Assembly: GCA_027364735.1 (NCBI GenBank)
Contig: DAHXOT010000017.1
Span: 1 to 64,000 of the forward strand
Length of the DNA: 64,000 bases
Direction: 5' to 3'
Source of the DNA: Hydrotalea sp.
GTDB lineage: Bacteria; Bacteroidota; Bacteroidia; Chitinophagales; Chitinophagaceae
Made by a program: the position numbers and the translations under genes. Shown here piece after piece: positions 57,055 through 59,765 of the stretch. Each line of letters opens with the position of its first letter. Within the stretch, counting starts at the first letter, position 1. The notes below the pieces were generated by a model. That model was not told where the DNA came from, searched no databases, and saw nothing but the letters and a program-made list of their open reading frames with translations.

Positions 57055-57720
57055 ATGGGAATAGCACTTAAGAAAATGTATTCTGTGGCAATTGCGGATG
57101 ATCATACATTAATGCGCAATGCTTTGGCCAGATTAATTGGTGGGTTTAATCACTTTTCTGTAGTGTATGAAGCAGGAAACGGGAAAGAATTATTAGAAAA
57201 AATACAAACAATTCAAATTCCCGATATTGTTCTTTTAGATATTAATATGCCCGAAATGAATGGTTTTGAAACAGCAAGCATATTAACCAGATACTATCCT
57301 CAAATAAAAATACTATCACTATCCATGAATACCGATGAAGCAAGTGTTATAAAAATGCTTCGTTTAGGTGCTAAAGGATATTTAATGAAAAATGTAGAAC
57401 CCGATGAACTTCATTTGGCATTAGATTCTATAGTTAAAAAAGATTTTTATTTATCGGAAAGTATATCGGGTAAAATAATTAGTGGCTTACACAAAGCAGT
57501 AGATGTTAATCCCGATGAAATAAAAATTTCGGATAAAGAGAAAGAATTTTTAAGGCTCACTTGTACCGAAATGAGTTATAAAGAAATTGCAGATAGAATG
57601 TTTGTTAGTCCGCGAACAATAGATGATTACCGAAATGCCCTTTTTGAAAAATTAAACGTTAAAACCAGAATGGGTTTAGCCATGTATGCTATTAAAAATA
57701 AAATGATAGATGGGTTATAA
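57055..57720 (+). CDS. NarL/FixJ-family response regulator
   Basis: A 221-aa regulator. Receiver acidic pair A-D-D-H (14-17), phospho-acceptor Asp in L-L-D-I-N-M-P (near 62) and conserved Lys in G-Y-L-M-K-N. The LuxR-type helix-turn-helix is at about 155-212, with S-D-K-E-K-E-F-L, M-S-Y-K-E-I-A-D and S-P-R-T-I-D-D-Y. It is the partner of the preceding kinase and ends the operon, whose target genes are unknown. Confidence 0.92.
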   Translation: MGIALKKMYSVAIADDHTLMRNALARLIGGFNHFSVVYEAGNGKELLEKIQTIQIPDIVLLDINMPEMNGFETASILTRYYPQIKILSLSMNTDEASVIKMLRLGAKGYLMKNVEPDELHLALDSIVKKDFYLSESISGKIISGLHKAVDVNPDEIKISDKEKEFLRLTCTEMSYKEIADRMFVSPRTIDDYRNALFEKLNVKTRMGLAMYAIKNKMIDGL

Positions 57721-57733
57721 TTACCTGCCAAAG

Positions 57734-57774
57734 TTGATTATCTGCCACACTTTTAAAGCGTGGCAGATAATCAA
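57734..57774. repeat. REP-like palindrome, downstream side of the RAYT gene
   Basis: Two perfect 15-nt arms (TTGATTATCTGCCAC / GTGGCAGATAATCAA) flank an 11-nt centre that pairs further (CTTT/AAAG). It shares the core TGCCACACTT...GTGGCA with the palindrome at 58431-58459. It may also end the response-regulator and transposase transcripts. Confidence 0.8.
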
Positions 57775-57777
57775 TAG

Positions 57778-58377
57778 CTAAACAAATATTTCTCGTAATT
57801 TATCTTCATCAATTGCGGCATAACTTTCTTTATAAAAAGAACTTTTATCAATATTAAAAAGTTGAAAAGCTCTCTCTTTGTTAATAATGTTTTTGTCTTT
57901 TCTATCTACTAAAAAATCTATAAAAGAAGAAAACTTCCAATCTTCCATTCTTTCAACTAATCTTGCCTTCCATGGGTTTTGATGAATATAATTGATACAA
58001 GTAAATCTATAATATTCGGTTTGTTCATTTTCGGAAATATTTTTGCATTTTGTATTTTGAGTAAATAAAGAGCCTGTTCTATTTTGTTGTTTATTAAATG
58101 CTTTTGTATAGCTACTTAATAAATGTTGTATTGCATAAGAAGTTTGTTGCATGATAGCAAAACCTGCTTTTTTTTCAATAACACTTTCTGAAGTGGCTTC
58201 TATTATTATATGAAAGTGATTGGGCATTAAACAATAAGAAAGTATATTACAAACCGGAGAAAGATAATATTTTATTTTTTTGATAAAGAAGTGGTAATGC
58301 GCTTCATATAAAAAGATAGGTTGTTTATTTAAGCCTCTATTGTAAATATGATAAATATTATTTTTAACTAATTGCAT
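57778..58377 (-). CDS. REP-associated (RAYT-like) Y1/HUH transposase
   Basis: A 199-aa single-domain HUH nuclease of the Y1 transposase family (Y1_Tnp). It has an N-terminal Y-H-I-Y-N-R-G (9-15), the metal-binding P-N-H-F-H-I-I (52-58, His54 and His56), a catalytic-tyrosine candidate Tyr90 in S-S-Y-T-K-A-F-N, and the RAYT-typical stretch N-R-T-G-S-L-F (99-105) plus Y-I-H-Q-N-P-W-K-A-R-L-V (130-141). Such enzymes are thought to mobilise REP palindromes (known for E. coli TnpA-REP). The related palindromes on both sides support that role. The domain looks complete. Confidence 0.85.
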   Translation of the reverse strand: MQLVKNNIYHIYNRGLNKQPIFLYEAHYHFFIKKIKYYLSPVCNILSYCLMPNHFHIIIEATSESVIEKKAGFAIMQQTSYAIQHLLSSYTKAFNKQQNRTGSLFTQNTKCKNISENEQTEYYRFTCINYIHQNPWKARLVERMEDWKFSSFIDFLVDRKDKNIINKERAFQLFNIDKSSFYKESYAAIDEDKLREIFV

Positions 58378-58409
58378 TACACAAATTAATATTTTTTTAT
58401 CATTTTAAT

Positions 58410-58461
58410 GCAGATGCCCACTTTAGATAAAGATGCCACACTTCAAAAGTGTGGCATCTGC
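58410..58461. repeat. REP-like palindromes, upstream side of the RAYT gene
   Basis: A 13-bp perfect stem (AGATGCCACACTT at 58431-58443, AAGTGTGGCATCT at 58447-58459) with a 3-nt loop. A further GCAGATGCC at 58410 can pair with GGCATCTGC at 58453-58461, giving a nested alternative structure. The core matches that of the palindrome at 57734. Confidence 0.8.
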
Positions 58462-58482
58462 ATAAGTATATAGAAATAAAAT

Positions 58483-59676
58483 TTATTTACTTAGGTTCAT
58501 ACTTCTTTCTTTATACAATCTTCTAAAATAGGGGTCGCGTAAATCTTTAATAAAGCGAATTGCTTCTCCGGTACTTTTCATTTCAGGTCCTAATTCTTTA
58601 TTTACTCCCGGAAATTTATCGAAGCTAAATACAGGTTCTTTAATGGCATAACCATCTAACTTCTTTTCTAAATTAAAATCGGTTAGTTTGGCAACGCCTA
58701 ACATTATTTTGGTAGCAATATTTAAATAAGGAATTCCATAAGCTTTTGCAATAAAGGGAGTGGTTCTTGAAGCACGAGGGTTGGCTTCAATTACAAATAC
58801 TTTTCCATCTTTAATAGCAAATTGAATATTAATTAATCCGCGAATACACAAAGCTCTTGCAATTTTTTCGCTATAATATTCCATGGTTTCAACAATTAAT
58901 GGCGTTAAGTTAAAAGCGGGTAAAACTGCATTACTATCACCACTATGAATACCGGCCGGTTCAATATGCTCCATAACGCCCATTACATGAAAATTTTCGC
59001 CATCAAAAATGGCATCTACTTCTGCTTCTTGGCATCTATCTAAAAAATGGTCAATTAAAATTTTGTTTTCAGGAATATGTTTTAATAAGCTAATAACTGC
59101 TTTTTCAACTTCATCATCGTTAATAACAATACGCATTCTTTGTCCGCCTAAAACATAGCTGGGCCTTACTAAAACGGGATATCCAACTTTATTGGCTACT
59201 TCAATAGCTTCATCGGCGGTAAAGGCGGTTCCGTATTCGGGATAAGGTATTTCTAATTCTTTCAATAAATCAGAAAATCTTCCCCTGTCTTCTGCAATAT
59301 CCATATCATCGAATGAAGTACCTATAATTTTAATTCCTTTTTTTGTTAAGCGTTTCGATAATTTTAAAGCAGTTTGGCCTCCTAATTGAACAATTACACC
59401 TTCGGGTTTTTCTAATTCAATAATTTCCCATAAATGTTCCCAATATACCGGTTCGAAATAAAGTTTATCGGCAATATCAAAATCGGTAGAAACTGTTTCG
59501 GGATTGCAATTAACCATAATAGCTTCGTATCCGCATTCTTTAATAGCCATTAAGCCATGAACGCAGCAATAATCAAATTCAATACCTTGTCCAATTCTAT
59601 TGGGGCCACTGCCTAATACTACTATTTTTTTCTTAGAGGAAGGGATAGATTCGTTGAAAGAAATTGTATTGCTCAT
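58483..59676 (-). CDS. carB: Carbamoyl-phosphate synthase large chain, C-terminal half only
   Basis: A 397-aa protein counted from the ATG at 59676; a TTG at 59694 adds six residues. It begins with the second ATP-grasp synthetase unit of CarB: V-V-L-G-S-G-P-N-R-I-G-Q-G-I-E-F-D-Y-C, then P-E-T-V-S-T-D-F-D, G-G-Q-T, Y-P-V-L-V-R-P-S-Y-V-L-G-G and E-A-N-P-R-A-S-R. It stops near T-G-E-A-I-R-F and lacks the C-terminal MGS allosteric domain. The N-terminal half (ATP-grasp 1) is absent here, so the gene is a split or partial carB. This half normally makes carbamoyl phosphate from carbamate. Upstream is a 3'-end of the porZ locus. Confidence 0.88.
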   Translation of the reverse strand: MSNTISFNESIPSSKKKIVVLGSGPNRIGQGIEFDYCCVHGLMAIKECGYEAIMVNCNPETVSTDFDIADKLYFEPVYWEHLWEIIELEKPEGVIVQLGGQTALKLSKRLTKKGIKIIGTSFDDMDIAEDRGRFSDLLKELEIPYPEYGTAFTADEAIEVANKVGYPVLVRPSYVLGGQRMRIVINDDEVEKAVISLLKHIPENKILIDHFLDRCQEAEVDAIFDGENFHVMGVMEHIEPAGIHSGDSNAVLPAFNLTPLIVETMEYYSEKIARALCIRGLINIQFAIKDGKVFVIEANPRASRTTPFIAKAYGIPYLNIATKIMLGVAKLTDFNLEKKLDGYAIKEPVFSFDKFPGVNKELGPEMKSTGEAIRFIKDLRDPYFRRLYKERSMNLSK

Positions 59677-59765
59677 TTTTAACAAATTGTGCAAATGTAA
59701 GAATGTATGAGTTTTTGAAGAGATTATTTTTTGAATTACTTAAAATAGCTTCAATAGCCAATTAA

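Follow-up and report, generated by a model that had tools for sequence, protein, structure and literature searches.

The 64,000-nucleotide stretch of Hydrotalea sp. DNA analysed here (hereafter the window) contains a RAYT-hairpin unit that resembles a published, little-described branch of such systems in Bacteroidota. A gene for a RAYT-like HUH/Y1 transposase stands between two hairpins, gene and hairpins are maintained together in a congener, and homologous genes in relatives are accompanied by matched hairpins of their own. We consider it highly probable that the locus is a REPtron-like unit of the Bacteroidota RAYT (TnpAREP) branch, with the HUH/Y1 gene held between its own recognition hairpins. 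The window represents the low-copy extreme, in which enzyme and hairpins are kept together without spread; the part most deserving of attention is a double-dyad design found in the hairpins of the wider family.

The RAYT gene and its hairpins in the window

The RAYT gene (positions 57778-58377, minus strand) encodes a 199-aa protein which, judged by its motifs, carries the HUH motif (H54-F55-H56) and single catalytic tyrosine (Y130, within YIHQNP) of RAYT/TnpAREP enzymes, together with N134. An earlier note on this DNA, made from the letters alone, had described this ORF, its motifs and a palindrome on either side, all of which hold up, the downstream palindrome to the base (57734-57774). The alignment of homologues that it proposed agrees as well: H54, H56 and Y130 fall on columns that are invariant or at least 90% conserved in alignments of 23, 11 and 67 sequences. 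The protein alignment omitted 14 of 80 loci (stops, no start found, or motif mismatch), and in alignment A5 three of the 45 rows were displaced by the aligner and retained. A RAYT match at E ≤ 0.001 was found in 51 of 119 genomes (the window's own genome and relatives). By their titles the 80 relatives are, we take it from the names, Bacteroidota or Balneolota, except for two without a taxon.

A protein model was computed with AF2 (input alignment: window protein plus 66 homologues; pLDDT 94.2). Its best PDB match is 4er8, the E. coli RAYT/TnpAREP with REP hairpin (Foldseek E 2e-7; Z 15.5, rmsd 2.5 over 152 residues), followed by IS608 (Z 9.8), and the model thus supports a RAYT-type fold that is clearly nearer to 4er8 than to IS608. 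The NCBIfam equivalog NF047646 (REP_Tyr_transpos, REP-associated tyrosine transposase) matches residues 5-150 at 54.8 bits, under the curated cut-off of 80 bits, so membership is not claimed; the match to Pfam Y1_Tnp is faint (E 0.013) and below its cut-off. The fold match and the sub-threshold NF047646 match together bear out the RAYT-type transposase proposed in the earlier note.

The downstream (3') hairpin, TTGATTATCTGCCACaCTT-tta-AAGcGTGGCAGATAATCAA (57734-57774, 41 nt), lies between the converging stop codons of the RAYT and a LuxR-type response-regulator gene (57055-57720, plus strand; the same neighbour is present in the congener) and is built of 15 bp, one A.C (plus strand) or G.T (minus strand) position, 3 bp and a 3-nt loop. 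Its DNA fold (-16.4/-18.8 kcal/mol, z about -8) was equalled by none of 200 shuffles on either strand. The upstream (5') hairpin, AGATGCCACACTT-CAA-AAGTGTGGCATCT (58431-58459, 29 nt), is bordered by the 3' end of the C-terminal half of a split carB (58483-59694, minus strand); this right palindrome has z -6.6/-5.9, and both hairpins fold far better than shuffled sequence. A third, partly decayed half-arm, TGCAGATGCCCACTT (58409-58423), which the congener has in another state of decay, can pair with 58447-58462 and displace the 5' arm of the upstream hairpin, so the earlier count of "one or two" palindromes on this side was correct. With up to one mismatch allowed, TGCCACACTT has 9 matches in the window where 3.4 would be expected, and the two hairpins account for four of these. 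The two hairpins agree at 10 of 15 arm positions, which is below what is usual: among 24 loci with a 33-nt hairpin on both sides, at least 12 of 15 positions agree in 21, and the window is one of the three exceptions. No GT[AG]G stands at the hairpin foot in the window, a departure from canonical REPs, and the search of 57500-58700 for terminator-like sites, with the T tract that follows the stem of an intrinsic terminator, found none.

The split of carB, already remarked on in the earlier note as a half-length gene, was confirmed and is a matter separate from the RAYT. The half at 58483-59694 corresponds to profile positions 547-943 of TIGR01369, and the N-terminal half (profile positions 1-544) is on another contig (G000:C43:99233-100873). 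The carB 3' end is the same in the congener, and carB exceeds the full-length cut-off in all 14 control genomes.

The congener has the RAYT at the same place, with a shared carB 3' end and response regulator; the window's ORF is intact, retains the catalytic residues and is 97% identical to its counterpart there. The 12-nt arms of the upstream hairpin, GATGCCACACTT/AAGTGTGGCATC, are identical in both, and the loop (window 58431-58459, congener locus L010 63-89) is TTG in one of the species, where the other has the reverse complement CAA. This exchange looks as if the hairpin had flipped in place; TTG and CAA are the two commonest loops in the family. The downstream stem of the congener shows a compensatory change at its base, G-C to C-G, and an A-T pair in place of the window's G.T. 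On both sides the extra half-arms are in different states of decay in the two species, while the main hairpins are kept.

A search of the whole genome (54 contigs, 99.9% complete) for the hairpin core, ungapped with up to three mismatches, returned the two copies at the locus and one look-alike with two mismatches (G000:C12:9677), which is flanked by converging ORFs, is preceded by an A tract and followed by a T tract, and was therefore called terminator-like. The congener genome (86% complete) has two hairpin copies. Dispersed copies, as expected of a canonical REP, were thus found in neither genome, which leaves mobility at this locus hypothetical. The reading in the earlier note is partly supported: it holds for the enzyme and the layout and fails for genome-wide REP spread. 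Its term "REP-like" suits the cognate hairpins that flank the gene and does not suit a locus with neither a GT[AG]G guide nor dispersed copies in its own genome or the congener. Two outcomes had been named in advance as speaking against it, of which one, the lack of further copies, was observed, and the other, that the palindromes are ordinary terminators with no conserved core in relatives, was not.

Stems of the form TGCCAC...GTGGCA with A and T tracts are present at G000:C12:9677, C28:8992 and C43:118425 (L002, L004 and L005), and these three are probably terminators.

Both congeners also have a second RAYT, between cas9 and cas1 of a type II CRISPR-Cas locus (L212, G000:C21:34500-48500, in the window's genome; L213, G001:C106:6500-18000, in the other). 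The second RAYT of the window's genome is 36% identical to the window RAYT and broken by an in-frame TAA; next to it cas1 is split into 176 and 110 aa and is intact in the congener (304 aa). The broken RAYT and the split cas1 are at L212 7157-7761 and 7762-8676. Within the broken gene lies a nested hairpin, AACTTTTTCAAAGTT-TGA-AACTTTGGAAAAGTT, whose pattern was matched nowhere else in the genome. Between the two loci the RAYT-cas1-cas2 stretch aligns at 86% and the consensus of the 47-nt CRISPR repeat, derived from 14 units in one locus and 7 in the other, is the same, whereas the two Cas9s are only 27% identical over their best-scoring segment. Alignable DNA starts again one base ahead of the RAYT start codon, and an exchange of cas9 with its breakpoint at the RAYT seems to have taken place.

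Hairpins at related loci and in related genomes

Homologous loci were taken as the best 80 of at least 556 that encode relatives. By a fold-based search with an alignment score of at least 30, matched upstream and downstream hairpins were found at 49 of the 76 testable loci among these 80 (4 omitted for too little flank), against 1 of 136 positions shifted by 1400 bp; the remaining 27 of 76 did not reach that score. A strict inverted-repeat detector found flanking pairs at 26 of 77 loci from the same 80 (3 omitted for too little flank) and at 0 of 136 shifted positions. The matching hairpins occur in direct or inverted arrangement and differ widely between loci, and similarity of hairpin arms tracks similarity of the proteins (Mantel r 0.50, p 2e-4, over the 27 loci with both an aligned protein and a 33-nt flanking hairpin), a result that common descent of hairpin and protein would also give. 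These relatives and the congener support the view that the window's gene is flanked by cognate hairpins, and the palindromes that the earlier note had taken as related partners of the enzyme are best regarded as such.

Two loci carry larger sets of hairpins. At L166 (G137:C141:1600-8400) the RAYT is accompanied by five hairpins of one type, two flanking it, one in the gene and the remaining two, both at phase 0, in long ORFs next to it (525 and 679 aa). At L021 (G021:C105) four 33-nt hairpins form a tandem array with a 69-bp unit beside the RAYT.

Hairpin spread is moderate and confined to some relatives. The pattern AST-N9-ACT-N3-AGT-N9-AST has 26 matches in the genome of L104, 30 in that of L119 and 21 in that of L126 (control with the pattern reversed: 3, 8 and 3); 7 of the 26 belong to a tandem repeat of a different kind. 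Among the 13 remaining genomes, 9 do not exceed the control and 4 do (16/9, 4/3, 10/2 and 2/0). The pattern CNGTGSCACNGTT-N3-AACNGTGSCACNG was found in 8, 8, 4, 3 and 1 copies in five of the 12 genomes tried, with controls of 0, and in 0 copies in the window's genome and the congener. Four of these five genomes have such hairpins beside a RAYT, and the fifth (L058) has a related form. Hairpins of the AAACCT type are present in 15 relatives, 6 of them without a RAYT match at E ≤ 0.001; by an eye count over 119 relatives, RAYT matches occur in 9 of 15 genomes with such hairpins and 42 of 104 without, a weak difference that was not used. In 47 fetched stretches, chosen for holding a hairpin and therefore informative on place and not on frequency, 48 of 64 hairpins lie outside ORFs of at least 90 aa, and a RAYT is present in 3 stretches.

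Nested symmetry of the family hairpins

Hairpins with exactly 15 stem positions, at least 13 of them paired, and a 3-nt loop were collected from 110 loci (the best 80 of at least 556, 29 further relatives and the window). Within 400 bp of the gene on either side, 97 such hairpins were found in 52 loci, against 15 in the rest of the 110 loci; about 0.15 Mb was scanned near the gene and 0.35 Mb in the rest. In these 97 hairpins the arms are themselves symmetric about stem position 8, with 69.5% of dyad positions paired against 26.6% in shuffled arms; this inner symmetry played no part in selecting the arms, and no other axis is raised among them. Examples are ATCCGTG-C-CACGGTT, AAACCT-ATA-AGGTTT and AACTTT-TCC-AAAGTT. 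The 15 distant hairpins have an inner dyad of 50.5%, as dispersed copies would show. With one representative for each group of similar arms and none dropped, the 17 dissimilar hairpins give 56.3% against 25.8%, above all 1000 shuffles.

The nested pairs also covary. In a set of 45 hairpins, with one taken from each locus, both sides had changed in 152 cells (shuffles: 61). The covariation score of 0.459, against 0.172 in shuffles, was reached by 0 of 500 shuffles, and slid versions scored no more than 0.13; the numbers of pairs and of pair types are unremarkable (327 and 46 of 500 shuffles as high), and the two nested helices are not mutually independent because the long stem links them. A scan for 4-nt loops gave 13 hairpins near RAYTs in which axis 8 is also raised (59%; axis 9, 47%), and a scan for 5-nt loops was left aside because it was judged likely to re-find mostly those of 3 nt. 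We add to the published branch a hairpin with a 15-bp stem and a 3-nt loop whose stem, in many members of the family, is palindromic about base pair 8. No description of this nested symmetry was met in the portions of PMC6006769, PMC3733652, PMC8266576 and PMC12306157 drawn on here, and an earlier description is possible. The window's two hairpins do not follow the rule: each pairs at 2 of 7 dyad positions, with about 1.9 expected by chance, and the downstream hairpin of the congener pairs at 3 of 7 against the same expectation.

A GT[AG]G guide was found at 1 of the 97 family hairpins, against 3 expected from shuffled flanks, and pooling the flanks over both orientations revealed no tetranucleotide; all that stood out was a T/A bias beside the stem (T 0.48 at -1). 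In 83 of 97 hairpins the loop is of the form Y-N-R. Since this class reads the same as its reverse complement, it allows neither head nor tail to be assigned. A T tract (at least 6 T of 8) accompanies 4 of the 97.

Twenty of the 97 hairpins lie inside the RAYT gene. Of the fifteen that were mapped, 14 occupy 11 whole codons at phase 0, and 13 begin within residues 62-74, directly behind the HUH strand; that of L125 is at phase 2, as is the hairpin in the broken second RAYT of the window's genome. In the fetched stretches 16 hairpins overlap an ORF, and 10 of the 12 inspected lie wholly within an ORF of at least 90 residues (7 at phase 0, 2 at phase 1 and 1 overlapping ORFs of several phases), not all of these ORFs being proven genes. 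A hairpin in the valyl-tRNA synthetase gene of L184 was considered as proof of insertion; comparison with 15 homologues placed it in a variable loop that is longer by a net 4 or 5 residues, and the site was dropped as evidence of mobility for want of a clean 11-residue insertion.

Mechanism, alternatives and known systems

TnpAREP binds its hairpin as a single strand, cuts beside it through the tyrosine and transfers the strand from the 3'-OH (PMC8266576). By analogy, the palindromes of the window would fold when the region becomes single-stranded as lagging-strand template; the enzyme would bind the hairpin, and Y130 would attack the strand near its foot, leaving a 5'-phosphotyrosine and a free 3'-OH. 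If this end were joined elsewhere or used for priming, hairpins could be copied or turned over, and the same process may have spread them through the genomes of some relatives. In the two searched genomes of the genus only the gene-side copies remain, perhaps kept by selection or recent activity, and these would serve as the enzyme's own cis sites, with a possible role in autoregulation.

The GTAG guide participates in the choice of cleavage site by TnpAREP (PMC8266576), and with GT[AG]G absent from the family hairpins this choice cannot apply unchanged; in subclass 2.6 of Quentin et al. 2018 the region that contacts the guide is not conserved (PMC6006769). Part of recognition might have passed to the symmetric stem. 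More fully, and only tentatively, Bacteroidota RAYTs might act on a distinct 33-nt double-dyad palindrome in which each 15-nt arm is near-palindromic, in effect a REPIN shortened to a pair of inverted 15-nt mini-hairpins that are 3 nt apart. A symmetric duplex read from either end, or by a dimer, would then replace the GTAG guide, and elements, being 11 codons long, could be accommodated in reading frames, that of the RAYT among them. The unit in the window would be a low-copy member of the branch whose inner symmetry has been lost. We know of no account of hairpin recognition and cleavage by RAYTs that lack the GTAG guide. A 15-3-15 geometry whose dyad is centred on stem base pair 8 offers a concrete, testable recognition rule for the whole branch, with natural variants for comparison in perfect and mismatched stems, in-gene copies, and genomes with 2 or about 20 copies.

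Three other explanations were weighed. The palindromes could have nothing to do with the enzyme and be ordinary, bidirectional terminators serving carB, the RAYT and the response regulator that converges on it; they do sit exactly between genes, one of them between converging stop codons, and the other TGCCAC hairpins of the genome (C12, C28 and C43), with their A/T tracts, look like terminators. We regard this as very unlikely given the empty terminator search at 57500-58700, the rarity of T tracts in the family, the hairpins placed within RAYT coding sequence, and the specificity of matched pairs for RAYT genes (49/76 among the best 80 of at least 556, against 1/136). An IS200/IS605-type insertion sequence, moving as a unit with the palindromes as left and right end hairpins, would share the catalytic fold and the hairpins on both sides, and direct or inverted matching hairpins at homologues would suit it too. 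The gene, however, is present in a single copy, the only other homologue found in the genome being the 36% identical one in the CRISPR-Cas locus, and as the congener has it at the same site, neither the near-identical copies nor the differing sites that mark an insertion sequence were found; the fold is clearly closer to 4er8 than to IS608, and subclass 2.6 averages 1.8 copies per genome at 40.7% identity (PMC6006769, Table 1). This explanation appears the least probable of the three.

Less improbable, yet still unlikely, is a decaying relic, a former REPtron whose enzyme is inactive and whose hairpins persist by chance. Dispersed copies are lacking in both searched genomes of the genus, decay of the third arms on either side has taken a different course in each species, the second RAYT of the genome is broken, and the inner symmetry of the family is at chance level in the window. 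Against decay stand the intact RAYT ORF with its catalytic residues and its 97% identity to that of the congener, and the main hairpins, which are kept, one of them by a compensatory change, while the extra arms decay. The preferred reading is that of a REPtron-like unit in which enzyme and hairpins belong together.

Among known systems, IS200/IS605 elements (IS608, ISDra2) share the HUH/Y1 fold and hairpin recognition with the window's unit, and differ in being mobile as a unit and in their weaker fold match to the window protein (Z 8-10). The E. coli REPtron (TnpAREP, 4er8; group 2) has the closest solved fold and cognate hairpins flanking the gene, but E. coli REPs are dispersed and need a GTAG foot and an internal bulge (PMC8266576), while the window has neither GTAG nor dispersal. 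Group 3 REPtrons (S. maltophilia, Marinomonas) have perfect palindromic hairpins with short loops, as here, on stems of 8 and 5 bp with GTAG, compared with the 15-bp stem without GTAG of this family; the portions of PMC8266576 on group 3 contain no mention of nested symmetry that we met. The biochemistry in that paper is on groups 2 and 3.

A Bacteroidetes branch with "atypical secondary structures" has already been published (PMC6006769), and its subclass 2.6 holds all 40 sequences of Bertels group 5. The window resembles this subclass in its Bacteroidetes host, in the tyrosine motif (YIH[QN]NP there, YIHQNP here), and in flanking structures without GT[AG]G that have copies elsewhere, in the hosts there and in relatives here (PMC6006769). 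It differs in the HUH motif (NH[LIV]H there, NHFH here) and in a genome without dispersed copies; as the comparison is by motifs only, we describe the window as resembling 2.6 and do not file it as a member. In-gene REPs are given as a unique feature of subclass 2.4 in PMC6006769, whereas 20 of 97 hairpins are in-gene in the present family. The structures of classes 2.6 and 3 were called weaker and found by manual inspection (PMC6006769), whereas many of the hairpins collected here are strong 15-bp stems with a nested dyad.
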